A DNA stretch of 64,000 nucleotides from the NCBI RefSeq assembly GCF_000403135.1, contig NZ_AQPN01000098.1, positions 1-64,000 on the forward strand, given 5' to 3'. A program made the position numbers and the translations under genes. This DNA comes from Arcticibacter svalbardensis MN12-7 (GTDB lineage Bacteria > Bacteroidota > Bacteroidia > Sphingobacteriales > Sphingobacteriaceae). Under the pieces are notes generated by a model. It had not been told where the DNA came from. It made no database searches and saw nothing but the letters and a program-made list of their open reading frames with translations. Of the stretch, positions 574 through 54,751 are shown piece after piece. The first letter of the stretch is position 1. Each line of letters starts with the position of its first letter.

Positions 574-1377
574 ATGATAAAAAAACTGCTCTCAACTCAT
601 TTGTTAATAGCCATGGCAATCTTTGTGATTATGGCTTTGCCTTCCTGTGTTGTAACAAAAAAATCGGTTTATTTCACAGATATGCCTGATACTGCGATAT
701 TAAGGAGTATTACTCCTGCTGAATTCAAAGAACCTGTGATACAACCGGATGATATATTGAGCATAACTGTGCAAACAATAGATCCTACAACTACTGCAGC
801 AGTCAATCAGGTATCCGCAATGCCTGCCGTAGGTGCTAGTTCCGCTTCTTCAACAGGTCAGCAGTTAATTACTGGATTTTTGGTAGATAAAAATGGGAAT
901 GTAGCTATACCTATGATTGGTGCTTTGAAGCTTGGTGGTTTAACAACATACCAAGCAAGGGAGTTGATACAACAAAAAGCGACTTTTTTTTTTAAAGATC
1001 CAACAGTTCAAGTGCGATTTGCAAATTACAAGATAACAGTAATCGGAGAGGTAAACAGACCTGCTGCTTATACTGTTCCGAACGAGAAAGTTACTTTATT
1101 AGATGCAATAGGATTGGCAGGCGACTTGACTATCTATGGAAAGCGAGATAATGTGCTCTTAATAAGAGATAATGCAGATAAAAAGGAGTTTATTCGATTC
1201 AATTTGAATTCATCTGATATCTTAAAGTCTCCATATTTTTATTTAAAGCAAAATGACGTGATTTATATAGAACCAGGAAAAGGTAAGATTGCTGCAAATA
1301 ACGTAGCAAGAACACAATCATTAGCGATTGTGGGATCGATACTGTCAGTTCTAATAGTTTTATTAACAAGAATCTAA
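574..1377 (+). CDS. wza: Polysaccharide export outer-membrane lipoprotein (Wza-like)
   Basis: This 267-residue protein has a lipoprotein signal with the lipobox ending at Cys25 (ALPSC). A polysaccharide export domain follows (about residues 50-150, starting near QPDDILSITV), then an SLBB domain (about 152-235, YKITVIGEVNRPAAYTVP). A hydrophobic C-terminal helix (about 248-265) could span the outer membrane as in Wza. Members of this family form the outer-membrane channel that exports high-molecular-weight polysaccharide and dock onto the Wzc-type kinase, which is encoded 10 bases downstream. The gene contains a run of ten T (984-993) read as phenylalanine codons, and the frame stays intact across it. 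Confidence 0.9.
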   Translation: MIKKLLSTHLLIAMAIFVIMALPSCVVTKKSVYFTDMPDTAILRSITPAEFKEPVIQPDDILSITVQTIDPTTTAAVNQVSAMPAVGASSASSTGQQLITGFLVDKNGNVAIPMIGALKLGGLTTYQARELIQQKATFFFKDPTVQVRFANYKITVIGEVNRPAAYTVPNEKVTLLDAIGLAGDLTIYGKRDNVLLIRDNADKKEFIRFNLNSSDILKSPYFYLKQNDVIYIEPGKGKIAANNVARTQSLAIVGSILSVLIVLLTRI

Positions 1378-1387
1378 CCATTTCTAT

Positions 1388-3766
1388 ATGAATAATTGGC
1401 AGGAAAATCCGCCTAGGGAAACAACAAGTAAAGACGAGACAAAAGAGTTTTTGCAATTTGTTGGGAAAATATTAGCGAACTGGTTTTGGGTATTATTGAG
1501 TACAGTGATTTGCTTATCAGGAGCATTTTTTTATTCAAGATACTATACTCCTGTTTATAAAATCAGCGCAAAGGTTTTATTTAATGATGAGAAGAATGGA
1601 TCTGGACTTGGTGCACAAAATGATTTACTTGATTTAAGTAGCCTTTTGGGTTCAAAAAGTTCCGTTGATAATGAAGCCGAAGTTTTAAAAACTCGGATGT
1701 TGATGGAAAAGGTAGTGAGAGGCTTAAATTTGAATATTACCTATTATTCCAAAGGTAATATTAGGGATATTGAATTAATAGAACCGCCCTTTACTGTCCA
1801 ACTGTTAAACACAAGGGACACAATACAATCTGCCTCTTTTGATGTTAAATTTCTTGATTCAAATACATTTGAAATTACTAATGAGGATGTTACAAAAACG
1901 GTTAAGTATAATCAACCATTATTCCTCGATAATATCGGCAAGGTTAATTTTGTAAGGAATGTTGGAATTTTGAGAAAAAAAGACTTTTATAAATTTGAAG
2001 TTACTTCTATAGATCAAACAGTTTCTGCTTTTATGAACGAATTATCAGTATCAGTAACAAATAAACAGGTTAGTACTATTGATTTAATTTTTAACTATCC
2101 AATTCCCCAAAAGGGTGAATTGATTTTGAATTCACTGATAGAAAAGTACGTTCAAGGAAATATAACAGATAAGAATCTCATTGCAGATAGTACTATATCT
2201 TTTATAGAAAATCGCTTACAATATGTTGGCCAAGAATTGGGAGATATTGAGGGTAGTATTCAAAACTTTAAGCAAAAAAGTAAAATCACTGATATTACTG
2301 AACAATCAAAGGTCTTGATTCAGAGTAGCGGCCAATATATAGATGAATTGGCAAAAGTAGAAACTCAATTGTCAATTCTGAATTCCTTGGAAAATTATCT
2401 AAAAGATGGATCTAAAAATAAGAGGGTTCTTCCTAGTGCAGTGCTTCCGGAAGATATGGTTTTTAGTGGTTTAATAGAAAGGTATAATACCTTATTGCTT
2501 GATCGTGATCGTCAGTCACTATCTTCTACTGAAAATAATCCATATATACAAAACTTGGAAGAGCAGATTTCAAATTTAAGAATAGATATGCTTTCAAACC
2601 TATCCAATACTCGTAGTTCTTTAATTATTACTCGAAATAAGTTAAGGCAAAGAACAGGTTTAGTTGAAGGAGAAATAAGAAAAGTCCCTGCTGCCGAAAG
2701 AACATATTTAGATCTAGCACGACAACAACAAATTAAACAAGAGTTATATATTTTCTTATTGCAAAAACGAGAAGAAACTGCAATCTCAAAGACTTCTAAT
2801 ATATCTAATTCAAAGGTTATTGATCTTCCTAAAGCGAACCCTATTCCTTTTAAGCCTAATAAGAGAATGATTTTGTTAGTTGGTCTTGCAATAGGTTTAA
2901 TAATTCCTTTGTCACTTATTTATTTTAAGGGATTACTTAATACAAGGGTTGTTACCAAACAGGATATTACAGATAATACAATTGTATCTATTATAGCAGA
3001 AATAGGAAATAACGATTCTGGTGCCGATATAATTATAAATAATGAATCACGAACTCCAATAGCAGAACAGTTTAGGTCTTTGCGTACCAATCTTTCATTC
3101 TTCCTTAAGGGAGATGAAAAAACAATACTTTTGACATCAAGCATGTCCGGAGAGGGTAAGTCTTTCATTTCTTTAAATTTAGCAAATGTATTAGCTATTT
3201 CCGGAAAAAAAGTAGTTGTGATGGAGATGGATTTAAGGAAGCCGAACTTGAGTAGTAAATTGAATTTGTCTAATTCTTTTGGTGTTACTAACTACATAAT
3301 ATCTGAAGAGACAGATATTAATGACATTATTGTCGAATCTGGAGTTTTACCTAATCTGTATATTATTAGTTCTGGCCCTATTCCTCCAAATCCAGCTGAA
3401 ACTATCCTTACTAAGAGGTTAGATGATTTGATGGAGGCATTGAAGGCGCAATTCGACTATATTATTATAGATGCTCCGCCTGTTGGATTAGTAACTGACG
3501 CTCAGTTGTTAAGTAAATATTCAGATCTGACCTTATATGTAGTTAGGCAAGGATATACGTATAAATCCCAGTTGGCTATTATCCAGGATTTGTACAGCAA
3601 TAAAAAGATGAAGCAAATATCTGTATTAATTAATGACATTAAACTAGATGGTGGTTATGGTTATGGCTATGGTTATGGAGGTTATGGCTATGGTTATGGC
3701 GATTATGGCCATAGCAATAATAAGAAACGGAGTTTATTAGATAGGTTAAGTAAAGGGTTTAAGTGA
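1388..3766 (+). CDS. wzc: Polysaccharide co-polymerase and tyrosine autokinase (Wzc/BY-kinase)
   Basis: The protein has 792 residues. An N-terminal Wzz-type chain-length domain is bracketed by membrane segments at about 31-53 and 493-513, with a long coiled-coil-rich periplasmic part between them. The cytoplasmic BY-kinase domain follows, with Walker A (SGEGKS, near residue 586), Walker A' (VVVMEMDLRKP) and Walker B (IIIDAPP) motifs. The tail (about 755-780) is an unusual Gly-Tyr repeat with roughly ten tyrosines, the expected site of autophosphorylation. Kinases of this family control polymer length and export together with Wza and Wzy. It is the second gene of the plus-strand operon. Confidence 0.93.
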   Translation: MNNWQENPPRETTSKDETKEFLQFVGKILANWFWVLLSTVICLSGAFFYSRYYTPVYKISAKVLFNDEKNGSGLGAQNDLLDLSSLLGSKSSVDNEAEVLKTRMLMEKVVRGLNLNITYYSKGNIRDIELIEPPFTVQLLNTRDTIQSASFDVKFLDSNTFEITNEDVTKTVKYNQPLFLDNIGKVNFVRNVGILRKKDFYKFEVTSIDQTVSAFMNELSVSVTNKQVSTIDLIFNYPIPQKGELILNSLIEKYVQGNITDKNLIADSTISFIENRLQYVGQELGDIEGSIQNFKQKSKITDITEQSKVLIQSSGQYIDELAKVETQLSILNSLENYLKDGSKNKRVLPSAVLPEDMVFSGLIERYNTLLLDRDRQSLSSTENNPYIQNLEEQISNLRIDMLSNLSNTRSSLIITRNKLRQRTGLVEGEIRKVPAAERTYLDLARQQQIKQELYIFLLQKREETAISKTSNISNSKVIDLPKANPIPFKPNKRMILLVGLAIGLIIPLSLIYFKGLLNTRVVTKQDITDNTIVSIIAEIGNNDSGADIIINNESRTPIAEQFRSLRTNLSFFLKGDEKTILLTSSMSGEGKSFISLNLANVLAISGKKVVVMEMDLRKPNLSSKLNLSNSFGVTNYIISEETDINDIIVESGVLPNLYIISSGPIPPNPAETILTKRLDDLMEALKAQFDYIIIDAPPVGLVTDAQLLSKYSDLTLYVVRQGYTYKSQLAIIQDLYSNKKMKQISVLINDIKLDGGYGYGYGYGGYGYGYGDYGHSNNKKRSLLDRLSKGFK

Positions 3767-3801: not shown

Positions 3802-5370
3802 ATGTTAAAAAAGGGTAGTGATTTTCAAAGGATTTTAAAAGGAATTTCATTTTCATGGATAAAGTTCGTATTGAGCATTTTAATAGGTGTTTTTCAAACG
3901 CCTTTGTTATTTAAATATTTGCCTTCCGACCAATTAAATACCTGGTATATTTTTTTTTCAATTGGCGCATTTCTTCAAATTTCAGATTTAGGATTAGTTT
4001 CATCAATATCTAGAATCATTGCTTATCTCGATAATTCTGATGAATCAACTCAACAAGATAATGGTGTGCAAATGTTCCGTTCATTCAAAACAAAACAAAT
4101 TTACTTTACAGCTTTATTTTCATTTAATACACTGCTTTTTGTATTTGGGTTTATTATATATTTTGCTTACAGCTATTTTCATAATGATTCATTTTCTTCT
4201 AGTACCTTCAGTATTGCATTTGTTGTTTTTATTTTAGGAATAATTTGTAACATGTTATCTAATATTCCAACTGCGATTCTTACAGGTTATAGGGATATTG
4301 GATATGATAGCATTGTTCGGAGTGTAGTTCAAATATTTTATTTTGTCTCTCTTATCGTTTTCTTGCCTTTTTATCATTCAATTATTTTTGTTTCATTAGC
4401 TTTTTTTCTTCAAAATTTCATACAGCTTGTAGTATTACACTTTATATTATATTTCAGGCATATATCAATTTTCAGAATAAAACTTTCTGTAGGTGAGCTT
4501 ATTAAAATCCAGATAGTCAAAAGTATATATAAGCAATCATTTCCTTTAGCAATTAACCAAATAGGTACATGGTTGACTACACAAGGCAGTGTTTTTATAG
4601 CATCTATTGTTTTGGGTCCTAATCAAATATCGGATTATGCAATTAACCAACAGTTATTTACTTATGGTTTAGCAATTTCATTAGTTTTAAATCAAAGCAT
4701 GGGACCTTTTATAGCAAAACAATATATTCAAAAAAATCATGAGAACTTAGTTAATTATTATGTTCGAACAACTACCGTATGTTTGTTTGTTATTGGTATT
4801 TTTTTAGTTACTTTATTGTCAGTTTTTAATGAACTTATTTCAATATGGGTTGGGGTACAGCATTCATTGGGATTAAACTTAGTTGTGTTTTTTGCATTGA
4901 TTGCTTTTTTTGAGGTTCAACATTCTGTTGCAGGAAATTTTGTTTGGAATATGGGTAAATGGCCCTTTAATAAATTAACCCTATTGGCAGGGGTATTGAA
5001 CTTATCGTTAGGGTACGTTTTAGGTAAGCAATATGGATTACTAGGGATTGCCATTGGGACATTTTTGTCTAAGTTTTTTACGCTTAATTGGTATGTTGTC
5101 TTCTACTGCTTAAAAAAATTAGGGTTAAGTGTTTCTAAATATCTTAAGGAGGTAATGCTGCCCATTTTATTTACAGGTATAATAACAGTTATGATTTCTA
5201 GCTATATTAAAGGTTATTTACATATTGAGCTAGTCAAACCCATATTTGGAATCATGATCATTTCTGCAATCTCAGTTTTGATATTCATATTTATAATATT
5301 TATATTTTTCAGGAGTGCATACAAGCCTTTACTTGCATATGTTAAAGTATATCGAGAAAAGGGTGTATAA
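3802..5370 (+). CDS. wzx: Oligosaccharide flippase (Wzx-like, MATE/MOP superfamily)
   Basis: A 522-residue, very hydrophobic protein with about 12-14 predicted membrane segments. It begins with a short cytoplasmic stretch followed by the typical flippase start (FKYLPSDQLNTWYIFFSIGAFLQISDLGL). Wzx proteins move undecaprenyl-linked repeat units across the inner membrane before polymerisation. Its place between the Wzc and Wzy genes supports this role. A run of nine T (3950-3958) lies inside the gene without breaking the frame. The exact lipid-linked substrate cannot be read from sequence. Confidence 0.85.
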   Translation: MLKKGSDFQRILKGISFSWIKFVLSILIGVFQTPLLFKYLPSDQLNTWYIFFSIGAFLQISDLGLVSSISRIIAYLDNSDESTQQDNGVQMFRSFKTKQIYFTALFSFNTLLFVFGFIIYFAYSYFHNDSFSSSTFSIAFVVFILGIICNMLSNIPTAILTGYRDIGYDSIVRSVVQIFYFVSLIVFLPFYHSIIFVSLAFFLQNFIQLVVLHFILYFRHISIFRIKLSVGELIKIQIVKSIYKQSFPLAINQIGTWLTTQGSVFIASIVLGPNQISDYAINQQLFTYGLAISLVLNQSMGPFIAKQYIQKNHENLVNYYVRTTTVCLFVIGIFLVTLLSVFNELISIWVGVQHSLGLNLVVFFALIAFFEVQHSVAGNFVWNMGKWPFNKLTLLAGVLNLSLGYVLGKQYGLLGIAIGTFLSKFFTLNWYVVFYCLKKLGLSVSKYLKEVMLPILFTGIITVMISSYIKGYLHIELVKPIFGIMIISAISVLIFIFIIFIFFRSAYKPLLAYVKVYREKGV

Positions 5371-5412: not shown

Positions 5413-6656
5413 ATGAAAAAATGGATTTTGTTAATGTGTTTTTTGGTTTGGATTTTTGTTTTTGGCTTTTTTGATGGCCAAGGCTTTACAAACGAAACAA
5501 GGAATTATGGTTCACTTTTATTATTTAATATTGGTATTGTAATTGTTTTTTTATACTGAAAAGGTTTCCTCTTTCATTTAAATTTCCTAAAAGCGCTCAT
5601 TTTTATTCATTAATTGTTTTTTTGATACTTATACATTTCTTTCGATCTAATTATCAAGTTTCTTTGAATAATATGATGAATATTGTTTTTACTCAAGTTT
5701 TAATAATCCTAATGGCAAATATTTCATGGAGTATTCAGTTTAAGACAGTATTGAAAATAATGCTTGTTTTTTTTCATGTAGCATTATTTTTAAGTCTTAT
5801 AGTACACTTTAAGACAGGTGGGACACTTTCGTTTGGAAATCATACGATGACAGGAAGACTTGGTGGGTTATTCTTTTTTGCGGTGACAGCGGTGTTAGCT
5901 GGTTTTGCAAGCTTGATTTCGTTTTATTTGGTATTAATTAATAGAAGGGTTATATATATAATTTCACTAGCTCTATGTATTGCTTATTTAATATATACTG
6001 ACAGTAGATCTGTATTATTAGGGGTTATCGTGGGATGTTTTATTCAATATTTTTTTAACTTAAAAATACAGAAAAAAAAGACAACAAAAACGATTGTCTT
6101 TTTTATTGTCTTTTATGTTCTCTATCGTATTTACTCTGCATATAATTTAGGTGGCGCAAATGTAGAGGACGATTTGGAATTTCGGACAAAAATTTGGAGT
6201 ACTGCATTATTGGGTATCTATCAAGAGCCTTATTTGGGATATGGGGATTCTTTATATTTTCTAACTAATATGAATTATGCTTTGAAGGATTTCTATGAAC
6301 AATTAAATGATCCTCATTCTAGTTATCTTGCTTTAATTCTTCAATCGGGTCTAATCGCATTTTTTATGTTGTTTTATTTTTTATACCGTATCTTAAAAGG
6401 AATGGTTCTTAAGCCTAATATTTACAACCTCTTTGTGATTTCTCTTTTTGGTTTTTGGTTAATTAGTGGATCAACTGGAGGGGCATTTTTTAATTTAAAC
6501 TATTCGTTACTTTCTGTTTTATTTAATTTTACCTTGATAGCTTTGGCATTTCATCCATCGTTGTGGCCAACTAATTCTATACGAATAAAGGAAGTAGGTT
6601 TAAGTAGTGAAAAGCATGAGAATGAAGGAAATTTTAAATCTATTAATATATTATGA
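5413..6656 (+). CDS. wzy: O-antigen polymerase/ligase-like protein (Wzy), frameshifted near the N-terminus
   Basis: Two overlapping frames together make one 414-residue polytopic membrane protein. The first frame starts at ATG 5413 (MKKWILLMCF) and stops at 5557-5559. The second reads on past that point without a stop to 6656. Inserting a single T into the T7 tract at 5546-5552 joins them. The second frame alone has a first good ATG only at 5622 and would lack the first two membrane segments. The later part carries the large periplasmic loop typical of Wzy/WaaL proteins (DDLEFRTKIWSTALLGI, DPHSSYLALILQSG). Its role would be polymerisation of repeat units. The stop overlaps the next start by 4 bases. 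Whether the frameshift is real or a sequencing error cannot be told here. Confidence 0.75.
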
Positions 6657-13916: not shown

Positions 13917-14828
13917 TTACATTTTACCCGGAGCAACATCTTTGTAAGATGCCTTATTATCTCCAATCCTAACTTCGTCATAATATATAATTCTTTTGTT
14001 TATTCCAACCATCTTTTTTTCCTTTTTTAACATCCATGTCCACTTATATAATCCTAATTTAAAATATGTTCCGATTCTGTCATTATAAACATTCGGTCCT
14101 TTGTATTGAGTTATAAATTTTGAATTCTTCCATACTTCTATTATGCCATCGTTTTCCCAAGATGGTATAATATGAAACACAATATCATTCCACGATTTTT
14201 TATGGTATAAACCTAAATCAATTTCTTTTTTACCTTCTGGTGAAGTATTCACAATCGTCCTAGACCATAATATGACTAAATATAAGTGTCCGTTTCGCGT
14301 CTGAAGAGATATTGGAGGAGATCTCCAATTTTCACCTAGATCAAAATCAGGATAATCATGCAATTGCATAACACTTTCAGGCTCATTATCTAAGATATAA
14401 CTATCTGGGAAGAATATGGTAAACCCATACCATCTTTCACTTTTGGGGTCTGTTTCAGGTTTTAACACCAGTTCTGCTCTTTTTCCATTTGCAATAATTT
14501 TATCATCCCTCTTTAAAGTAACTTTTAAGGAATATTTGCCAACTTTAGAGACTGTGTTACTTCTTTGAATTGAAAATTTTGACTGTTTTTCCTGAGCTTT
14601 CCAAATAGATAAATAAGCGATTGATTCAAAACTAGTTTCAAATATCAAATGTGATCGAAAATATGAAGTATTATTACTTATGGTTTTGTGGGGCTTTATA
14701 TAGGTTAAATCTTGCTCTTTAATATGAAAAGTAGCTCCATTATGAAATTCAAAATTATATATTATTAAAATACCGAGTCTAAGTGATATATGTTTTAACA
14801 TTAATTTAGTATGATTTATAAAAAACAT
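13917..14828 (-). CDS. Heparin lyase I-like polysaccharide lyase, copy 1
   Basis: The protein matches the jelly-roll Polysacc_lyase family (heparin lyase I-like). Signatures are KRAELVLKPETDPKSERWYGF in the middle, FDLGENWRSPP and NGHLYLVILW, then WNDIVFHIIPSW, FKLGLYKWTW and a final IIYYDEVRIGD. Such proteins cleave uronate-containing polysaccharides or bind them. I chose ATG 14828 over an upstream TTG at 14834. No clean signal peptide is visible, though a hydrophobic stretch (LRLGILIIYNF) lies near the start. It is 27 bases downstream of the Wzi-like gene. A paralogue sits at 22829-23653. Substrate and activity are unproven; it may trim the polymer made by this locus. Confidence 0.75.
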   Translation of the reverse strand: MFFINHTKLMLKHISLRLGILIIYNFEFHNGATFHIKEQDLTYIKPHKTISNNTSYFRSHLIFETSFESIAYLSIWKAQEKQSKFSIQRSNTVSKVGKYSLKVTLKRDDKIIANGKRAELVLKPETDPKSERWYGFTIFFPDSYILDNEPESVMQLHDYPDFDLGENWRSPPISLQTRNGHLYLVILWSRTIVNTSPEGKKEIDLGLYHKKSWNDIVFHIIPSWENDGIIEVWKNSKFITQYKGPNVYNDRIGTYFKLGLYKWTWMLKKEKKMVGINKRIIYYDEVRIGDNKASYKDVAPGKM

Positions 14829-14855
14829 CAACAATCTTAATAGTAAATGAAGCTT

Positions 14856-17622: not shown

Positions 17623-17850
17623 TTATTCAGATAACAATTCGGAATGTTTAATAAACTTTATTAGAGTAGTTTTAGACTTAATGTGAAATCTGTGCATGCA
17701 AATAGGACACCAGTACTTATTTTTTCGAAGCCAGGGGAATATCGATTTTATAAAAGTTGAGCGTTGAAGGAGGTAGTAATGAGGAGCATTGCACTTAGGG
17801 CAATGCTGAGATTTGAGCTCGGACGTTGGTAGTAACTTATTCTTCTCCAT
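17623..17850 (-). CDS. Small double-CxxC protein, family member 1
   Basis: A 75-residue protein with CPKC near residue 18 and CPIC near 49, separated by a hydrophobic and aromatic middle (LLQRSTFIKSIFPWLRKNKYW). The second pair is followed by MHRFHIK. Two CxxC pairs suggest a single zinc-ribbon fold. No known function was recognised. Four relatives occur in this window (23804, 26696, 26969, 28563), and all share the CPxC ... FW ... CxxC ... KF pattern. In order of transcription it lies upstream of the transposase remnant, the Wzi-like gene and the lyase-like gene. Confidence 0.65.
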   Translation of the reverse strand: MEKNKLLPTSELKSQHCPKCNAPHYYLLQRSTFIKSIFPWLRKNKYWCPICMHRFHIKSKTTLIKFIKHSELLSE

Positions 17851-18174
17851 AAGTAAAAATACACATATTTCTCATTTTTTCTCATTATTTTTTATCATTT
17901 TGATATTTAAGTTGCTACCTTCCTGCTGTTTATTATATGCAAGGTTGAATAAGACTTTTTTTATTGCTGAGACTTTTCTTATATAGCTTTCTTACAAATA
18001 ATATTTGTGATAGTGATAAAACATTCATTTTAGTTTCATATGCCTTTGACTTGGATTTCTACTTATTGTGTTTTTGTCATTGGATTTATAATGAAATATC
18101 TATCTAACTATTTTATATATTAGTAAACATTTTTAAGGTTTTAAGGGAATCAACCTAAGATCAAAAAAAAATTT
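17851..18174. other. Divergent intergenic region upstream of rmlB
   Basis: These 324 AT-rich bases separate the minus-strand small CxxC gene from the plus-strand rmlBCA genes and should hold promoters for both. No clear TAnnTTTG element at a convincing distance, hairpin or repeat was recognised. Confidence 0.4.
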
Positions 18175-19227
18175 ATGAAGAAAATACTCATCACAGGGGG
18201 AGCCGGTTTTATCGGATCACATGTAGTCAGAAGATTTGTTACTACCTACCCCGAATACCAGATCGTAAACTTGGATAAATTGACCTATGCGGGTAACCTG
18301 GCCAATTTAAAAGATATAGAAGAGCAGCCGAATTACCGTTTCGTAAAAGGTGATATTGTGGATGCCGCCTTTATTGACAGCCTTTTTGAAAAAGAGTCAT
18401 TTGATTCGGTGATCCACCTGGCTGCAGAGAGCCATGTAGACCGCTCTATTTCCAATCCTTTAGAGTTTGTGATGACTAATGTGCTGGGCACGGTCAACCT
18501 GCTTAATGCGGCGCGCAAGTACTGGAAAGACGCCTATCCTGAACACCGCTTTTATCATGTCTCAACCGACGAGGTATATGGAACACTGGGTGAAGAGGGC
18601 CTGTTTACAGAAGAGACCGGCTATGATCCCCATAGCCCTTATTCGGCATCGAAGGCCAGTTCCGACCATTTCGTACGAGCCTATGCCGACACGTATGGAA
18701 TGAATACAGTGATCTCGAACTGTTCGAATAATTACGGATCATTCCATTTTCCTGAGAAGCTGATTCCGCTTGCCATCAACAACATCAAGAACAACAAACC
18801 CGTACCGGTATATGGTAAGGGAGATAATATCCGTGACTGGTTATGGGTGGAAGATCATGCCCGTGCGATCGATGTCCTGTTCCATGGTGCAGAACCGGGA
18901 CAAACCTATAATATCGGTGGTCACAATGAATGGAAGAACATTGACCTGATCCATGAGTTGTGCAGGATTATGGATAATAAACTGGGCCGCGAGCCAGGAA
19001 CATCAGCTAAGCTGATCACCTTTGTGACAGACCGTGCAGGCCATGACCTGCGTTATGCGATCGATTCATCCAAATTACAGCGGGAACTGAACTGGACCCC
19101 AAGTCTACAGTTTGAAGAAGGACTGGAGAAAACGGTAGACTGGTACCTACAGAATGAAGAGTGGCTTGAAAACGTCACCTCGGGCAATTACCAGTCCTAT
19201 TACCAGGGGCAATATAACGCACGCTAA
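18175..19227 (+). CDS. rmlB: dTDP-glucose 4,6-dehydratase
   Basis: A 350-residue short-chain dehydrogenase-type enzyme. The NAD-binding motif is TGGAGFIGSH (near residues 7-16). Catalytic elements are VSTDEVYG (near 134) and the YSASK pair (near 160). The family hallmark FHFPEKLIPLAINN is present. It converts dTDP-glucose to dTDP-4-keto-6-deoxyglucose, the branch point to rhamnose and other deoxysugars, in the cytoplasm. rmlC and rmlA follow on the same strand. The three genes are clearly richer in G+C than the glycosyltransferase genes at 0.5-14 kb. Confidence 0.96.
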   Translation: MKKILITGGAGFIGSHVVRRFVTTYPEYQIVNLDKLTYAGNLANLKDIEEQPNYRFVKGDIVDAAFIDSLFEKESFDSVIHLAAESHVDRSISNPLEFVMTNVLGTVNLLNAARKYWKDAYPEHRFYHVSTDEVYGTLGEEGLFTEETGYDPHSPYSASKASSDHFVRAYADTYGMNTVISNCSNNYGSFHFPEKLIPLAINNIKNNKPVPVYGKGDNIRDWLWVEDHARAIDVLFHGAEPGQTYNIGGHNEWKNIDLIHELCRIMDNKLGREPGTSAKLITFVTDRAGHDLRYAIDSSKLQRELNWTPSLQFEEGLEKTVDWYLQNEEWLENVTSGNYQSYYQGQYNAR

Positions 19228-19255
19228 TTCCATTACCCCAGCATAAAAGAATTAC

Positions 19256-19813
19256 ATGAATATCATCCCTACACAACTCGAAGGCTGTTTCATTATCGAG
19301 CCGGCCGTCTACCCCGATTCAAGGGGTTACTTCTTTGAGAGTTTCAATGAAGCGGGTTTTAATGAAAAGACCGGACTTGCTGTACACTTTGTACAGGATA
19401 ACCAGTCGCTGTCCACTTATGGCGTTTTGCGTGGCCTGCACTTCCAGCAGGGAAGCCATGCACAGGCCAAATTGGTGCGTGCCATCAAAGGCACGGTACT
19501 GGACGTAGCCGTAGACCTTCGTGCCGGCTCAGCTACCCTGGGCCAGCATGTCAGCGTGCTGCTGAGTGCAGAAAACAAAAGACAGCTGTTCGTTCCACGA
19601 GGTTTTGCCCATGGCTTTGCCGTATTGAGTCCTGAAGCCGAGTTTTTTTATAAATGCGATAACTATTACAATAAAGCCTCCGAAGGGTCATTGCTTTATA
19701 GTGATGCCGATCTGGCTATAGACTGGCAGCTTCCCGCAGGGGATATCCTGGTATCAGAAAAAGACCAGGTCAATGCTACATTTCAAACCTTTAAAGAAAG
19801 ATTGAATTCATAA
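19256..19813 (+). CDS. rmlC: dTDP-4-dehydrorhamnose 3,5-epimerase
   Basis: A 185-residue cupin-fold epimerase. Conserved blocks are [35 protein letters not shown] (with the catalytic histidine in RGLHFQ), [12 protein letters not shown] and [14 protein letters not shown]. It epimerises C3 and C5 of the 4-keto-6-deoxyglucose nucleotide made by RmlB. It begins 28 bases after rmlB. Length and motifs are normal for the family. Confidence 0.95.
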
Positions 19814-19850
19814 TGAGTGTCCTAGATATCACCAAATTAAAAGAACAAGC

Positions 19851-20708
19851 ATGAAAGGAATAATACTCGCAGGCGGCTCAGGCACCAGGCTTCACCCCTT
19901 AACCCTGGCAACCAGTAAACAAATGATGCCAGTATACGATAAACCGATGATCTATTATCCACTGTCGATATTGATGCTGGCCGGGATCAAAGAAATTCTG
20001 ATCATCTCGACCCCGCATGACTTGCCAGGCTTTGAAAAGCTGTTGGGTGATGGAAGTAGGTTAGGCTGCAAGTTCTCGTATGCAATACAGGCAGAGCCCA
20101 ATGGACTGGCGCAGGCTTTTGTAATCGGGGCAGACTTTGTGGGAATAGATAGTGTGGCTTTGATTTTAGGCGACAATATCTTCTATGGCGATGGCCTGTC
20201 ACATTTGTTGCAGGACCTGAGCGAACCCAAAGGAGGAATCGTATTTGCCTACCAGGTATCCGATCCGGAGCGTTATGGGGTAGTGGAATTTGACGCCAAT
20301 AAAAAGGCGATCTCGATAGAAGAGAAACCCGAACATCCTAAATCCAACTATGCAGTACCGGGATTGTATTTCTACGATAATTCGGTGATCGAAATAGCCA
20401 AAAATATTAAACCCTCTCCACGCGGAGAATATGAGATCACGGATGTGAACAAGGTTTACCTGGAACAGGGCAGACTGAAGGTAGGAGTATTGAGTCGTGG
20501 CACAGCCTGGCTGGATACAGGAACCTTTGAATCCCTGATGCAGGCAGGTCAGTTCGTACAGGTCATAGAAGACCGCCAGGGACTGAAGATCGGCTGTATC
20601 GAAGAAGTGGCTTACCGGATGGGTTTTATCAATGCAGCGCAGCTTAAAGAAGCTGCAACCCCACTTATCAAGAGTGGATATGGACAGTATTTGATGAAGT
20701 TGATTTAA
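19851..20708 (+). CDS. rmlA: Glucose-1-phosphate thymidylyltransferase
   Basis: The 285-residue enzyme has the nucleotidyltransferase motif [17 protein letters not shown] at its N-terminus, followed by [27 protein letters not shown] and the later [20 protein letters not shown] block are standard for RmlA. It forms dTDP-glucose from dTTP and glucose-1-phosphate, the first step of the pathway. No rmlD (reductase) follows, so the last step to dTDP-rhamnose must be encoded elsewhere or the product is a different deoxysugar. Confidence 0.96.
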
Positions 20709-20801
20709 ACGCTAATGAAGGTAAGGCTAATTAAAAGTTATTGTAGATGTATAATTTAAAATCGGTGAGCTTATAGATTTTTGAATATAAATTTTCGACT
20801 T

Positions 20802-21449
20802 ATGAAAAAGCTTAAACAATTATTTAAGGATTGTGAAAAATCAAACTCAAATTTTTGGGTTGTTTTACTCAGGTCACTTTATTATAGAGCAAGGGGGAAA
20901 AATATAATTCCTCATCAAAGTGTTTATATAAGAGGTATAAAAAATATCAGTACGAAAGGAACTGTAAAAATAGGAATAAAAAATACCGGATTTACACATA
21001 ATAAAGATGTTACATATTTTAATGTTATGGGTAAGGTGGATTTTTTAGGAAGCTTTTCAATTGGTAGAGGCTGCAGATTTGATATAGGAAAAGACGCAGT
21101 GGTTAAACTTGGTGATGGTTCTTATATTAATCCTTATACAAATATTATAATTATGCATGAATTAAATATAGGTAGAGATTGTGCCATTTCTTGGAACTGT
21201 GAGTTTCTTGATGACGATTTTCATAAACTTGAATATGAAGGAAAAAGTGAATTGGAATCAAATGCAATCTCTATAGGAGACATCGTTTGGATTGGATCAT
21301 TTGTGTCAATTTACAAGGGAACTGTAATTCCCGATGGATGTGTGATTGCTTCGCATTCAGTTGTTAAGGGAGTTTTTAAAGAAAAATCCGTTTTAATAGC
21401 AGGCAATCCTGCAAAAGTTGTTAAAAGGAACATATCTTGGAATGGATAA
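20802..21449 (+). CDS. Hexapeptide-repeat acyltransferase
   Basis: A protein of about 215 residues from ATG 20802, chosen over an upstream TTG at 20781 because MKKLKQLF is a normal start. The C-terminal half has hexapeptide turns (IGRGCRFDIGKDAVVKLGDG, IGRDCAISWNCEFLDDDFHKL, IGDIVWIGSFVSIYKGTVIPDG) and ends VLIAGNPAKVVKR. This layout is common among O-acetyltransferases of surface-polysaccharide loci. It follows rmlA by 93 bases, but its AT-rich codon use is unlike the rml genes. It ends at a shared bidirectional terminator. Confidence 0.8.
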   Translation: MKKLKQLFKDCEKSNSNFWVVLLRSLYYRARGKNIIPHQSVYIRGIKNISTKGTVKIGIKNTGFTHNKDVTYFNVMGKVDFLGSFSIGRGCRFDIGKDAVVKLGDGSYINPYTNIIIMHELNIGRDCAISWNCEFLDDDFHKLEYEGKSELESNAISIGDIVWIGSFVSIYKGTVIPDGCVIASHSVVKGVFKEKSVLIAGNPAKVVKRNISWNG

Positions 21450-21494
21450 AGGTTATATGATCCGCTCTTGTTTCTGTTTTACCATTATTTATTT

Positions 21495-21538
21495 ATGTCA
21501 ATAACTTGATTGTCTAAAAAATATCAAGTTATTGACAT
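21495..21538. terminator. Bidirectional terminator hairpin between the acyltransferase gene and gmd
   Basis: A perfect 16-bp inverted repeat, ATGTCAATAACTTGAT at 21495-21510 and its complement at 21523-21538, encloses a 12-base loop. T-rich DNA follows on the plus strand (TTTCCTTTTTT). It lies between convergent genes and could end transcription from both sides. Confidence 0.8.
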
Positions 21539-21599
21539 TTTCCTTTTTTATATTAATTTTACGATTATTAGAAGTTTCCGAATGTTTTTAATGTAATAC

Positions 21600-22715
21600 T
21601 TATTCATATTGATTTTTAACGGTATAACCCAGTTGTTTAAGCGTACGTTCTTTGCGGAACAGCTCTACATCTGAAGTCATCATGTCTTTAACCAGTGCTG
21701 GCAAATCATATTTAGGAATCCATCCCAGCTTGGTGTTGGATTTAGTTGGATCACCGATCAAAAGTTCAACCTCTGTTGGACGGAAATAACGGGGATCTAC
21801 TGCAACCACCTGAGTGCCTGCTTCAACCTGGTATTCGGGATTAGAGCAGGAAACAACGAATCCTTTTTCATCTATTCCTTCGCCTTTGAATTCAATTTGA
21901 ATACCTACTTCAGAGAAAGCCATCCGGATGAAATCACGAACGGTAGTGGTAACACCTGTAGCAATGACAAAGTCTTCAGGGACTTCCTGTTGCAGGATCA
22001 ACCACATGGCTTCTACGTAATCCTTGGCATGTCCCCAATCTCTTTTGGCATCCAGGTTTCCAAGGTATAGGCAACTCTGCATTCCAAGGGCAATCTTGGA
22101 TACCCCTCTTGTGATTTTGCGGGTTACGAATGTTTCTCCGCGTAATGGGCTTTCATGATTAAACAGGATTCCATTACAGGCAAAGATGCCATACGCCTCA
22201 CGGTAGTTGACCGTAATCCAGTAAGCATACATTTTAGCCACAGCATAAGGAGAACGTGGATAAAAAGGTGTGGTTTCTGATTGTGGAACTGCTTGTACCA
22301 ATCCATACAATTCGGATGTGGATGCCTGATAGATTTTAGTCTTTTTAGTTAAGCCCAAAATACGAATAGCCTCAAGCAAACGAAGAGTACCGATACCATC
22401 TGCATTTGCAGTATATTCTGGGGTATCAAAACTTACCTTCACATGGCTCATGGCTCCCAGGTTATAGATTTCATCAGGTTGTACCTGCTGAATGATACGG
22501 ATCAGGTTAGTGGAATCGGAAAGATCGCCGTAATGCATAAAGAAACGAACATCTTCGTCATGTGGATCCTGGTATAAATGATCAATACGATCGGTATTAA
22601 ACATGGAACTTCTGCGTTTTATACCATGTACTTCATATCCTTTGGATAATAGTAATTCGGCAAGATATGCACCGTCCTGACCTGTAATACCTGTTACTAA
22701 AGCCTTTTTTTTCAT
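21600..22715 (-). CDS. gmd: GDP-mannose 4,6-dehydratase
   Basis: A 371-residue enzyme of the extended short-chain dehydrogenase family. Its signature is [16 protein letters not shown], followed by [17 protein letters not shown] and the catalytic YAVAK region after [24 protein letters not shown] and [15 protein letters not shown] are hallmarks of Gmd. It makes GDP-4-keto-6-deoxy-D-mannose, the precursor of GDP-fucose, GDP-rhamnose and GDP-perosamine. No fucose synthase (fcl/wcaG), rmd or perosamine synthase is present in the window. It is third on a minus-strand series after a small CxxC gene and a lyase-like gene. Confidence 0.96.
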
Positions 22716-22828
22716 TTGTAATTTCTTAGGGGTTGATTCTAAATTATAGAAACTTAGAAGTTATGTATAGAAACTGTATAATTTTAATAATTATACGTAA
22801 ATATATGTGAAATTAATGAATAATTGGC

Positions 22829-23653
22829 CTAGAAAAAGCTAATACAGTAATCGCTCTTTTCGCAGGGTTGTGGAGCAACATCGCTATAAGAGGCTTGTTC
22901 ATCACCAATCCGTATATCATCATAAAAGATTGTTCTTTTAGATGTAATACTAGGAGTCCAAGAAGTCTTCCACAGTCCTAATTTTAAGTAAGATCCTTTC
23001 TTGTCATTACTGCAGTTGGGTCCTTTATATTTAGCAACTAATACTTTATTCCTCCACACTTCAATTAACCCATCCTCCTCCCAAGTTGATTTGATGTGAA
23101 ATACTAAATCATTCCATGAATTAATAATATACGGTCCTAAATCAATTTCTTTGATTCCGTCTGGTTTGATGTTAACTGAGTCTTTTGCCCATTGAACTAT
23201 TAGGTATAAGCGTCCATTTTTAGATTGGCAATATATAGTTGCACCTCGATAAGTTTCACCTAAATCAAAATCTGGATATCCAACCCATTGTAGAATACTT
23301 TCACCTTGATTATCTGGAACATAGTGTTTTGAAAAAAAAACACTTAATCCGTACCATCTTTCATATTTTGCTTGTGATTCAGGCTTTAATGTTAATTCAG
23401 CGTTTATAATGTTGGTTTGAGTTGAAAATGTTTTATTGAGTTCCATTCGAACAGAAAACTTTCCAGTTTTTGCTATTGAGTCACTTTTTAATATGGAATA
23501 ACTAAAGCCTTTTTCTTGATTATTCCACATAGATAAGCAATTCAATTCTTCAAATTCGCAATCAAACAGGAGATGGGATCTTTTATAAGGCTCTTCAGTT
23601 TTGGATAAAGCAGGCGCAATAAAAGTAAGAAGTAAGCACAAAAAGTAAGGCAT
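22829..23653 (-). CDS. Heparin lyase I-like polysaccharide lyase, copy 2
   Basis: A 274-residue protein with a signal peptide (MPYFLCLLLTFIAPALS), consistent with export to the periplasm or surface. It is a clear paralogue of the lyase-like protein at 13917-14828. The two share ERWYG, YPDFDLGE, NGRLYLI, KEIDLG, SWND and FHI blocks, EVW and YKGPN, LKLGLWK and YYD/FYDDIRIGD, and end with ASY-DVAP. The family is heparin lyase I-like (Polysacc_lyase). Here residues aligned with the KRAEL segment of copy 1 read INAEL, so the basic residues there differ between copies. It probably acts on an acidic polysaccharide, perhaps the cell's own. Confidence 0.75.
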   Translation of the reverse strand: MPYFLCLLLTFIAPALSKTEEPYKRSHLLFDCEFEELNCLSMWNNQEKGFSYSILKSDSIAKTGKFSVRMELNKTFSTQTNIINAELTLKPESQAKYERWYGLSVFFSKHYVPDNQGESILQWVGYPDFDLGETYRGATIYCQSKNGRLYLIVQWAKDSVNIKPDGIKEIDLGPYIINSWNDLVFHIKSTWEEDGLIEVWRNKVLVAKYKGPNCSNDKKGSYLKLGLWKTSWTPSITSKRTIFYDDIRIGDEQASYSDVAPQPCEKSDYCISFF

Positions 23654-24957: not shown

Positions 24958-25083
24958 AGCATTTCCTTTTAAAGAATGTTGCTTCTCAAGTATGTATATG
25001 ACATACTGTGTAGTTCTGTATCTAAACGATACACTTTACAGACTTATTGCCTAAGAAAGGCTTTGTTAGTTATCTTGGTGCAC

Positions 25084-25640
25084 ATGGAATATGCATCTAA
25101 AGTAAGATTGGCGCAGTTTGATCCTTCTGAAAATTTGGATCGGGGAGCTTCCAGGCTTAAAGAAATAGCTTGGTACCTGGTTAAAATTTGTTTTTTCTTT
25201 CTGCTTTGCCTTATCCGAATGGCTTTAAAAAGGTGCTTCTTGAGCTTTTCGGAGCTAAGATCGGAATTGGCCTCGTGCTTAAACCTCGGGTGAATATTCA
25301 TTTTCCCTGGAAACTGGAGATTGGGGATCATGTGTGGATTGGTGAAGAAGCTGCCTTATTGAATTTTGAAAAGTTAACTATCGGAAATAATGTATGTATC
25401 TCCCAGCGTGTCTTTCTTTGTGGTGGTAATCATGATTTTAGGAATCCTGCTATGCCTTATCGGAATGGTCCTATTGTTTTAAAAGATGGTTGCTGGATTG
25501 GCGCTTGTTGTTTTGTTGCTGCTGGTGTGACGGTAGGGGTAGATACTGTGGTGACTGCCGGATCTATTGTGACTGCCGACCTGCAAGACAATGGAATCTA
25601 TAAAGGAGATCCTTTAATGCTGATAAAGAACAGATGGTAA
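25084..25640 (+). CDS. wcaF: WcaF-like colanic acid acetyltransferase, frameshifted
   Basis: Two frames combine into one protein of about 185 residues. The N-terminal part runs from ATG 25084 (MEYASKVRLAQFDP) in one frame. The rest (ALPYPNGFKKVLLELFGAKIG onward, with IGDHVWIGEEAALLNFEKLTIG and GNHDFRNPAMP) is in another. One extra T in the T6 tract at 25191-25196 restores a normal WcaF layout and length. The hexapeptide beta-helix and the GNHD block with the catalytic histidine are intact downstream of the break. It would O-acetylate a sugar of the exopolysaccharide. The frameshift may be real or a sequencing error. Confidence 0.75.
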
Positions 25641-26498: not shown

Positions 26499-26695
26499 CT
26501 ATTGTTCATCAATTGTTAAATTTTCTCAAATTTTCATAGTATGGTTGGGGATTAAAGGTACGGATGCCATGATATAGTGGTATCTTCGGATATTAAAATA
26601 GATAGAATGAATATACCTTTACTTTTCTCAGATTTATCGTCAAAACATTCTGCTGTTAGATATCGTATAATGTATAATTTAACAAATACAGCTCA

Positions 26696-26911
26696 ATGAA
26701 AAAGGATAGGGTTCTTGAATTTACTTCAAAAAGAAAAAATATTGATGAGGCTCCTGATAATCCGCAGCATGTATGTCCTAAATGTAATTTATACACGGGT
26801 TATAGAATTCCTAATCCAAAAATAATTGATCGGTATTTCTTTTGGCTATCCTTGCATCGGTTTAAATGCACCCATTGTAGCAACAAATTTTTCATCATAA
26901 TACGTGATTAA
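26696..26911 (+). CDS. Small double-CxxC protein, family member 3
   Basis: A 71-residue protein with CPKC near residue 28 and CTHC near 58, followed by SNKFF. The block between them (YTGYRIPNPKIIDRYFFWLSLHRFK) is nearly shared with the next two members, with TGC(T/S)IPNPK in those. A polar N-terminal extension (residues 1-25) is unlike theirs. The function is unknown; a zinc ribbon is probable. It is the first of three such genes flanking the second OafA-type acyltransferase. Confidence 0.7.
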   Translation: MKKDRVLEFTSKRKNIDEAPDNPQHVCPKCNLYTGYRIPNPKIIDRYFFWLSLHRFKCTHCSNKFFIIIRD

Positions 26912-26968: not shown

Positions 26969-27172
26969 GTGCACGTTATTGACGCTTCCGGTAGATTAAT
27001 TAGAAAAGCGGACACGGATGAAAGTCCGTTGTTTTTGTGCCCTCAGTGTGGGGGATACACGGGTTGTACGATTCCTAATCCTAAGGTTATTGATACCTTT
27101 TTTTACTGGTTTTCTTTAAGAAGATTTAAATGTAATTTTTGCGGTAAAAAGTTTTACATCAGTATCAAATAA
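26969..27172 (+). CDS. Small double-CxxC protein, family member 4 (GTG start)
   Basis: A 67-residue protein. The likely start is GTG 26969, since a stop codon lies five codons upstream in frame and no ATG is available. It contains VIDASGRLIRKADTDESPLF before CPQC, then TGCTIPNPK and a FYWFSLRRFK segment before CNFC and GKKFYISIK. It is closest to the protein at 28563-28823, which has an N-terminal extension of about 19 residues. The acyltransferase gene begins 76 bases downstream. Confidence 0.65.
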   Translation: MHVIDASGRLIRKADTDESPLFLCPQCGGYTGCTIPNPKVIDTFFYWFSLRRFKCNFCGKKFYISIK

Positions 27173-28421: not shown

Positions 28422-28562
28422 CTGAATGAATGGCCAGTAATAGATTACTATACAATATAATACAGTATATTACATATTATCACGATACGTGTTCAACCTC
28501 TGTCTTCTCATGAAATAGTAGTTACTTGTGCTTAGTTTTGTTCTGTCTTAATTTTACTCATT

Positions 28563-28823
28563 ATGATAGAACGTATACATAAAGGAACACCTTCTACAAC
28601 TGATCAGCATAAATCCGGGGTGCATATTATTGACGCAAAGGGACGATTGGTGAAAGAAGCAGATACGGATTCGAGTCCTTTGTTTATGTGTCCTAAATGC
28701 CAGTGCTTCACGGGCTGCAGTATTCCTAATCCCAAATATGTGGACACTTTTTTCTACTGGTTTTCTTTAAAAAGGTTTGAATGCCACTTCTGTGGGCATA
28801 AATTTTATGAGAGCATTAAATAA
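28563..28823 (+). CDS. Small double-CxxC protein, family member 5
   Basis: An 86-residue protein with CPKC near residue 42 and CHFC near 75. Its core (VHIIDAKGRLVKEADTDSSPLFM, TGCSIPNPKYVDTFFYWFSLKRF, GHKFYESIK) is almost identical in layout to the protein at 26969-27172, showing recent duplication. The N-terminal 19 residues are extra and polar. No function is known. It precedes the pyruvyl transferase gene by 192 bases. Confidence 0.7.
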   Translation: MIERIHKGTPSTTDQHKSGVHIIDAKGRLVKEADTDSSPLFMCPKCQCFTGCSIPNPKYVDTFFYWFSLKRFECHFCGHKFYESIK

Positions 28824-51980: not shown

Positions 51981-52225
51981 AGCCATTGTATGCAAAGCTA
52001 ATTTACCAATGAATGAACTGATTAATTCGATTATATAAGACAAATTTTAAACAGTCGTTTCCCGAACCCTTATAGGAGTTGAAACATAAGAACAAGGTTG
52101 TTAATGATTTTTACGATCATCAGTTCTAGGGTGATGATATTGATCACTGCTTACAATGACTAGCATCATATAATTCAGAGCTACGGGTCATAGCTGTTCA
52201 GTTTATATCATCTAGGTTTGAAGTT

Positions 52226-52995
52226 ATGACATTAATAGTTCGGCTTAAACGATTTCTAAACGAAACCGGGAATGTAGCCCGTTTTACAGGCCGTTTCTTT
52301 TCGACAGGAATAAAGCCGCGGTATGAGAATAGGGAGCTACTAAATCAATGTTATAATATTGGCTATCTTTCATTTCCATTGGTTGGGCTTACTTCTTTTA
52401 TCATGGGACTGGTACTTACCATGCAGCTGAGGCCCTCGCTTGTGGAATATGGCGTGGAATCGCAGCTACCAGTGATGGTTGGGCTTGCAATTGTACGGGA
52501 AATCGGCCCGGTGATCACTGCATTGATTTTTGCCGGGAAAATAGGCAGTAGCATCGGTGCTGAGCTTGGATCAATGAAGGTAACTGAGCAGATAGATGCT
52601 ATGACGGTAAGCGGCATCAAGCCCTTCAAATATCTGGTTGCTACGCGGGTTGTGGCAACTACTTTAATGCTGCCTCTGCTTACTATTCTTGGAGATGGGA
52701 TTTCTTTGTTTGGCGCGTATCTGGGAGTAAACATACGTTCGGTAACCAGTATTGATCTGTTTTTTCTTCAGGTTTTTAAAAGTCTGGATTTTAGCGATAT
52801 ACTACCGGCTATAATCAAAACATTGTTTTTGGTTTTGCTGTAGGCATCGTAGGATGTTATAAAGGATTTAACTCCAGCAAAGGTACGCAAGGAGTCGGAA
52901 TCTCAGCTAATTCAGCTGTAGTTCTATCTTCTGTGTTGATTTTCATTATAGACTTACTGGCAGTGCAGATTACGGAATTACTGGGACTTAACTAA
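52226..52995 (+). CDS. mlaE: MlaE-type ABC transporter permease, frameshifted near the C-terminus
   Basis: The first frame encodes 205 residues (start MTLIVRLKRFLNETGN) with the MlaE core (SFIMGLVLTMQLRP, IVREIGPVITALIFAGKIGSSIGAELGSMKVTEQIDA). It stops at 52841-52843. The missing end (GIVGCYKGFNSSKGTQGVG ... AVVLSSVLIFIIDLLAVQ) follows in another frame to 52995. One extra T in the T5 tract at 52826-52830 gives a normal 256-residue permease. It is the inner-membrane component of a phospholipid (MCE) transporter with the mlaF and mlaD genes downstream. Confidence 0.82.
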
Positions 52996-53000
52996 TAAAC

Positions 53001-53744
53001 ATGGAAAAAGTTAAAAATGAAGCAGTAATTGTGATCAAAGATCTGGTCAAAGCCTTCGGAGAAAAAGTCATACTGGATGGATTTAATATGACTGTAGAAA
53101 AGGGCAGCAATGTAGTTATCCTTGGTAAATCTGGTTCAGGTAAATCTGTACTGATCAAATGTATCATTGGCCTGTTACAGCCGGATAGCGGAAGTATCCA
53201 TGTATTTAATGGTAATGTACCGGAGATGAACGAAGATGAACTAGATGAGGCACGGTCTAAAATTGGTTTTTTGTTTCAAAGCAATGCCCTTTATGATTCA
53301 ATGACGATCCGGGAAAATTTAGAGTTCCCCCTGTTAAGGCATTGGGTGGACATTGAGAAAGAAGAAGTGGACAGGCTGGTCAGCGAAGCTCTGGAAAATG
53401 TAGATCTGCTCCATACGCTGGATATGATGCCCTCGGAATTATCAGGAGGAATGCTGAAACGCGTTGCGCTTGCAAGAACCATGATCCTGAGGCCTGAGGT
53501 AATTCTTTATGACGAGCCGACGACAGGACTGGATCCTGTTACTTCAAGGGAAATTGAAGATCTGATCCTTAAACTGCAAAAGAAAAATCATACCTCTTCT
53601 ATCATAATCTCACACGATATGAACTGTGTTAAGAATACCGCAGATTTAGTGGTACTTCTGCTGGAAGGGAAATGTTATACAGAGGGCACATATGAAGAGC
53701 TTGAGCAGTCAGCCGATCAAAATATTAAACAATTTTTTGAATAA
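53001..53744 (+). CDS. mlaF: MlaF-type ABC transporter ATP-binding protein
   Basis: A 247-residue ATPase with Walker A (GKSGSGKS, near residues 46-53), the ABC signature LSGGMLKRVALAR and Walker B (VILYDEPTTGLDP). The LSGGM variant is common in MlaF/MCE-type ATPases. It powers phospholipid transport between the membranes together with MlaE and MlaD. It starts 5 bases after the corrected mlaE end and stops 9 bases before mlaD, so the three genes form one operon. Confidence 0.92.
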   Translation: MEKVKNEAVIVIKDLVKAFGEKVILDGFNMTVEKGSNVVILGKSGSGKSVLIKCIIGLLQPDSGSIHVFNGNVPEMNEDELDEARSKIGFLFQSNALYDSMTIRENLEFPLLRHWVDIEKEEVDRLVSEALENVDLLHTLDMMPSELSGGMLKRVALARTMILRPEVILYDEPTTGLDPVTSREIEDLILKLQKKNHTSSIIISHDMNCVKNTADLVVLLLEGKCYTEGTYEELEQSADQNIKQFFE

Positions 53745-53753
53745 ATAACAGAA

Positions 53754-54751
53754 ATGGCACATAAAAAAGAAAATAATATTAAGCTTGGGGCATTTGTTTT
53801 ATCTGGCTTAATACTGATGATCCTTACCTTTTTTTTATAGGAAAGAATAAAAACCTCTTTGGTAATGAATTCAAAATCAAGGTAAGATTTTCTAATTTGA
53901 GTGGTTTAACAGAAGGGAATAATGTGCTCTTTTCGGGCTTACAGGCAGGGACTGTAGAAGAAATTGAACTTATTAACGATAGCACTATTGAAGTTACCAT
54001 GCAGATCAATAGTAAGGTTAAATCGTTCATAAACAAAAATGCCCTGGCTGCTATAGGCACTGAAGGCCTGATGGGCAACAAGGTCGTGAATATTAGTCCG
54101 GTAAAAGGTATTAGTCAAAAAGTAGCAGAAGGTGATATACTGCAAGCCAAGGAAATGGCCAATATGGACGAAATTATAGAAAAATTATCGCAGACTAATA
54201 ACAATGTTGCCAGTATTTCTGAAGTACTTAAGGGTACCGTGATGAGAATTGATAGCGGTGCGGTATTGAAATTATTCAACGACGAAACTATTGGAAAAAG
54301 TTTGAAAGCCTCCTTGCTAAATGTATATAAGACAAGCAACAATGCCAACGAGATGAGCATGGCACTCAATCAAATTATCAGCGACATCAAACATGGCAAA
54401 GGAACTGCCGGGTTGTTACTTAGTAACACTGAAATGGCAAATACGCTTCAAGATGCCGTTGTACAAATAAAGGAGGCCGGAGTACATGCCAATGCCATGA
54501 CCATGGAAATGAATACCATGGTTAAGACAATAAACCATGACGTTACTAAAGGACATAACGCTGTAAATACCGTGCTTAATGATTCACTAATGGCTAAAAA
54601 TATAAGCCTGACTATGGAAAACCTGCAACATGGTACAGATGGCTTCAACCAAAATATGGAGGCATTAAAACATAACTTTTTTTTTAGAGGATACTTTAGA
54701 TCCCTGGAGAGGAAAAAGATAAAAGAAGCCAAAGCGGCTGCAAAACCTTAA
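53754..54751 (+). CDS. mlaD: MlaD-type MCE domain protein, frameshifted near the N-terminus
   Basis: The N-terminus (MAHKKENNIKLGAFVLSGL, an anchor helix) is read from ATG 53754 and stops at 53838-53840. The MCE domain continues in another frame (FIGKNKNLFGNEFKIKVRFSNLSGLTEGNNVLFSG). One extra T in the T8 tract at 53829-53836 joins them to a normal 332-residue MlaD. Without it the frame has no good start before the MCE domain and loses the membrane anchor. The helical C-terminal part (about 110-310) is typical. It binds phospholipid in the periplasm. Confidence 0.82.

Follow-up and report, generated by a model that had tools for sequence, protein, structure and literature searches.

A frame break at a T7 tract in wzy of Arcticibacter svalbardensis MN12-7 very probably reflects an undercalled homopolymer in a draft built from 454 reads alone

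The wzy gene of A. svalbardensis MN12-7, a harmless soil bacterium of the Arctic, is split into two reading frames close to a run of seven T residues in the deposited sequence, and this break is very probably a homopolymer undercall in a draft assembly that was built from 454 reads only. Under this explanation, the pyrosequencing signal of the T run would have been called with too few bases, so that a Wzy polymerase gene that is intact in the cell would show up as two open reading frames (ORFs) in different frames, and the breaks in three other genes of the window, encoding a WcaF-type acetyltransferase, MlaE, and MlaD, would be errors of the same type. The window is the whole stretch of DNA that was analysed, i.e., positions 1 to 64,000 of contig NZ_AQPN01000098.1 (64,000 nucleotides).

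The wzy frame break and its gene cluster

The features of the wzy gene and of the genes that lie 5' of it are as follows.

574 to 1377, forward strand: Poly_export/SLBB gene (Wza type), open despite a T10 at 984-993
1388 to 3766, forward strand: gene with matches to the Wzz, GNVR, and AAA_31 domains (Wzc type)
3802 to 5370, forward strand: flippase gene (Wzx type), open despite a T9 at 3950-3958; NCBIfam WZX_like, E 4.3e-36, under the cut-off of that model
5413 to 5559, forward strand: N-terminal piece of wzy, 48 aa, ATG start, first frame, TGA stop at 5557-5559
5546 to 5552, forward strand: T7 tract, read in the zero frame as gtT TTT TTA tac TGA, within 5529-5556
5529 to 6656, forward strand: remainder of wzy, open in the -1 frame, stop at 6654-6656; Pfam Wzy_C (PF04932)

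The initial annotation had placed a split of wzy at this T7 tract, and inspection of the ORFs and frames confirms both the tract and the frame break in the deposited letters. The T7 ends four bases before the TGA of the 48-aa ORF. With the -1 frame open from 5529 onwards and the first frame stopped at 5557-5559, the frame must change between 5529 and 5556, an interval that includes the T7 run. When the frames were scored with a coding model derived from the organism's own genome, the first frame came out best 5' of the tract (-0.1 versus -12.4 and -14.9) and, 3' of it, the -1 frame did (-0.3 versus -12.1 and -15.2), with both winning scores close to zero. Of the 1217 28-base windows of wzy, 89 contain a run of T7 or longer, and finding one by chance within the 28-base junction interval is thus mildly notable, not striking.

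The identification of the gene as wzy also holds. The -1 piece matches Wzy_C with an E-value of 5.5e-15 and a score of 55.9 bits (cut-off 31.7), and it lies 3' of the Wza-, Wzc-, and Wzx-type genes listed above and 5' of genes for an acyltransferase and glycosyltransferases. No Pfam family was matched by the 48-aa piece when it was searched alone, and no NCBIfam match was found for wzy. The Pfam Wzy_C family includes both polymerases and ligases; the wzy product is presumed, from its sequence and setting, to be the polymerase of the exopolysaccharide cluster. The order of Wza, Wzc, Wzx, Wzy, acyltransferase, and glycosyltransferases is that of Wzx/Wzy-dependent exopolysaccharide clusters of Bacteroidota, from which the present cluster differs in that every homologue found for its Wzy is remote (23-35% identity). 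Such isolation is usual for Wzy. Matches at E <= 0.001 came from 4 genomes among 60 relatives, 14 among the 399 of the family, and 5 among the 395 of the class, counts that each include the organism's own genome, and no close homologue was found among these three sets. When 19 distant Wzy_C loci were compared by phmmer (one further locus was left out, its match reading through several stops), a match within one intact ORF of 426-544 aa was obtained for 15 and none for the other 4; these proteins are too distant for a comparison of the site itself. In the three loci with alignments that reach the junction (L005, L010, and L015), about 60-66 extra N-terminal residues precede it, which is of the same order as the 48-aa piece, and for this reason the piece would fit as the true N-terminus of Wzy.

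Other features of the same polysaccharide region include related genes at 13917-14834 and 22829-23653 (66% DNA identity over 414 bases), whose products are probably secreted proteins that act on polysaccharide, this function being guessed from the sequence rather than from membership of a known family. The nucleotide-sugar genes at 18170-22728 have near copies (94-95% DNA identity) at 86384-91119 of another contig of the genome (C141). Small proteins with paired Cys motifs and a common core, zinc-ribbon-like by eye, recur at 17623-17850, 26696-26911, 26969-27172, and 28563-28823, and a Pfam search with three of them (17623-17871, 26678-26911, and 28536-28823) returned no match.

Three further breaks and the comparison with a sister species

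That three other genes of the window are broken in a similar way, as was first noticed from the letters, proved right. The proteins of the sister species A. eurypsychrophilus MJ9-5 served as the reference for these breaks.

24976 to 25640, forward strand: WcaF-type acetyltransferase gene in two frames, break at a T6 (25191-25196); NCBIfam PRK10502, E 9.9e-54, just under the cut-off
52181 to 52992, forward strand: MlaE permease gene in two frames, break at a T5 (52826-52830); Pfam MlaE profile shared between the two pieces (positions 2-164, then 162-211)
53751 to 54751, forward strand: MlaD/MCE gene in two frames, break at a T8 (53829-53836); Pfam MlaD, E 7.5e-17

Each of the three genes is one base short at its T run relative to A. 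eurypsychrophilus, which bears out the caveat, attached to the first description of the wzy split, that error was also possible. MlaE and MlaD are 89-93% identical to the sister proteins over most of their length, and each is encoded in a single frame in all 12 relatives that gave a match (16 loci were fetched, 4 of them without a match). The mlaE-ABC-mlaD operon (52181-54751) carries two separate one-base-short breaks, in its first and third genes; the intervening ABC gene (53001-53744) is open and shares 94% identity with its sister counterpart.

The extent of such breaks was surveyed in part of an assembly of 149 contigs and 4,687,695 bases (G+C 0.381 over 748,484 bases). On the A. svalbardensis side, the comparison covered 115,028 bases, of which the window contributes 22,036. 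Six two-frame events were recorded in this sample and three were kept, namely the WcaF-type, MlaE, and MlaD genes, all inside the window. In the reverse test, no two-frame event was found in 123,118 bases of the sister; a split of three breaks against none is not significant on its own (0.11). If breaks were spread uniformly, the chance that all three homology-confirmed cases would fall within the window's share of the covered bases is about 0.007.

Several other two-frame matches were not counted as broken genes. That at 25.7 kb reflects the absence from the A. svalbardensis sequence of a stretch that is present in the sister, that at 28.9 kb is antisense and adjoins an open ORF, one in stretch L056 is short and lies in a sequence repeated in the sister, and one in stretch L068 (16.2-16.5 kb) falls in a short ORF. 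Stretches L056, L068, and L070 of the genome gave little homology. At L068:15693-16069, a sister ORF matches by residues 1-108 of 203 only, and the match ends at a one-base difference (16016) in a short G run. This position may mark one more frame break, beyond the window; it was excluded from the count and, if it is a break, it would weaken the clustering of breaks in the window as an argument against sequencing error. A list of indels at the DNA level, L068:16016 among them, gave 47 frame-breaking cases in 104,996 aligned coding bases, many of which appeared by eye to be compensated pairs or to lie at ORF ends, and the coding mask of that list missed the MlaE site. A Viterbi scan of coding frame, which covered the window together with those of the own-genome stretches L056-L075 that exceed 3 kb, was insensitive: it returned mainly ordinary-looking gene overlaps and left wzy unflagged.

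Homopolymer undercalling as the probable common account

The type strain MN12-7T was sequenced on the Roche 454 FLX Titanium platform only, at 23x coverage, and assembled with GS De Novo Assembler into 151 contigs totalling 4.69 Mb with a G+C content of 38.16% (PMC3709154); no second platform corrected these reads. The sister, A. eurypsychrophilus MJ9-5, was sequenced with Illumina (PMC5435697). In a study of 454 FLX Titanium data (PMC3277595), homopolymer errors are reported to be biased to A and T and to rise with run length, and artificial frameshifts at A/T runs, which are worst in low-G+C DNA, may affect 20% or more of genes in low-G+C genomes. The breaks described here resemble those frameshifts in that one base at an A/T run disrupts a conserved gene in low-G+C DNA; they differ from them in that, within the testable part of the genome, they seem to gather in one contig and at T runs of the sense strand. 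Together, the one-base-short pattern, the intact genes of relatives, and the 454-only platform make undercalling an account of all four breaks, and we infer that the fault lies in the reads and not in the DNA. It should be noted that the shortage of one base relative to unbroken relatives was observed for the WcaF-type, MlaE, and MlaD genes and not for wzy, which has no close relative.

Four observations run counter to this account. First, the confirmed breaks cluster in the window, as calculated above. Second, all four breaks lie at sense-strand T runs even though A runs outnumber T runs on that strand (T share 0.40; 0.40^4 = 0.025). Third, the longest runs of the window are in open genes. 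Fourth, 99.36% of bases (4,659,080) were above Q40 (PMC3709154). Uneven coverage of the contig could explain the clustering, and a richness of Phe codons in genes for membrane proteins could explain the restriction to sense T.

Alternative readings of the wzy break

A real and fixed loss of one base, by which wzy of the type strain would be a pseudogene, perhaps as a result of laboratory passage or of relaxed selection on exopolysaccharide, is unlikely. Polysaccharide genes are often lost, and the loss of this one could be tolerable given that two other open Wzy_C genes above the cut-off, one on contig C79 (425 aa) and one on contig C70 (537 aa), are present elsewhere in the genome; the clustering of confirmed breaks in the window also favours real mutation. 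However, independent real losses would then be needed in MlaE and MlaD too, genes that are unbroken in every matched relative and highly similar to those of the sister over most of their length, and the 454-only method already predicts breaks of this kind. A genuine mutation confined to wzy keeps a small probability.

The initial annotation considered it plausible that slipped-strand phase variation at the T tract toggles Wzy and hence polymer formation. The tract does lie early in a gene for a surface polymer, and the Wzx/Wzy capsule loci of Bacteroides fragilis, a member of the same phylum, are mentioned in papers that also mention phase variation. The idea nevertheless gained no positive support, and we regard it as highly unlikely. 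A T7 is short and common in open genes: 387 open ORFs with a length of 250 aa or more contain 52 sense T7 and 142 sense A7 runs along with 75 longer A/T runs (T8 20, T9 6, T10 2; A8 38, A9 8, A10 1), and the wzy tract is neither longer nor odder than this genomic background. Longer runs, the T10 at 984 and the T9 at 3950, stand in open genes of the same cluster, and the same lesion occurs in MlaE and MlaD, even at a T5; phase variation is difficult to invoke for a conserved lipid-transport operon that is broken in this way. The distant wzy homologues offer no close counterpart for a comparison of tract length, and no paper in the literature collection searched brought an O-antigen polymerase together with a slipped-strand frameshift. 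A comparison of the tract with the genome background, within this one assembly, yielded no positive sign of switching at the wzy T7, and the draft was sequenced with 454 only.

Programmed -1 ribosomal frameshifting or transcriptional slippage on T TTT TTA, which would yield full-length Wzy at a fixed low ratio, is very doubtful. The required shift is -1 and the wzy heptamer (gtT TTT TTA) is exactly in phase as an X XXY YYZ motif, one codon before the TGA, so that wzy shares the seven letters and the phase of programmed -1 sites with U_UUU_UUA; the breaks in the WcaF-type gene (T TTT TTC) and in MlaD (T TTT TTA) are also in phase. The heptamer itself is commonplace, and several results count against this reading. 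In-phase T TTT TTA occurs 72 times in the 387 open ORFs, compared to 81.0 expected from codon shuffling, and undercalling of a T run would be expected to leave an in-phase heptamer about one third of the time anyway. MlaE reads ttG TTT TTG, which is not a standard slippery site. Unlike at programmed -1 sites, no stimulating structure was detected 3' of the wzy heptamer, where pseudoknot-free folding gave RNA that was not clearly better folded than shuffles (z 0.20 for 80 nt and -1.42 for 140 nt). Among the other sites, the 80 nt 3' of the MlaE break fold well (z -2.67, with 0 of 200 shuffles as good), the WcaF-type stretch does so to a lesser degree (z -1.65), and the MlaD stretch folds no better than shuffles (z 0.35). 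Lastly, U_UUU_UUA is reported to be far less shift-prone than A_AAA_AAG in Escherichia coli (PMC5009743). A broader version, that the letters are correct and that several membrane and envelope proteins (Wzy, the WcaF-type enzyme, and MlaD) require -1 slippage at in-phase T TTT TTN sites for their synthesis, as a shared control of low-level expression in a cold-adapted bacterium, is extremely improbable.

With homopolymer undercalling as the favoured account, the three secure cases found in the 115,028 bases that could be compared would extrapolate to roughly 120 breaks genome-wide. Without new reads, a frame break that coincides with an A/T run in this reference genome is poor ground for claims of phase variation, pseudogenes, or recoding. 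Should the letters prove right, control of several envelope genes by a common slippage mechanism would be a matter of real interest.
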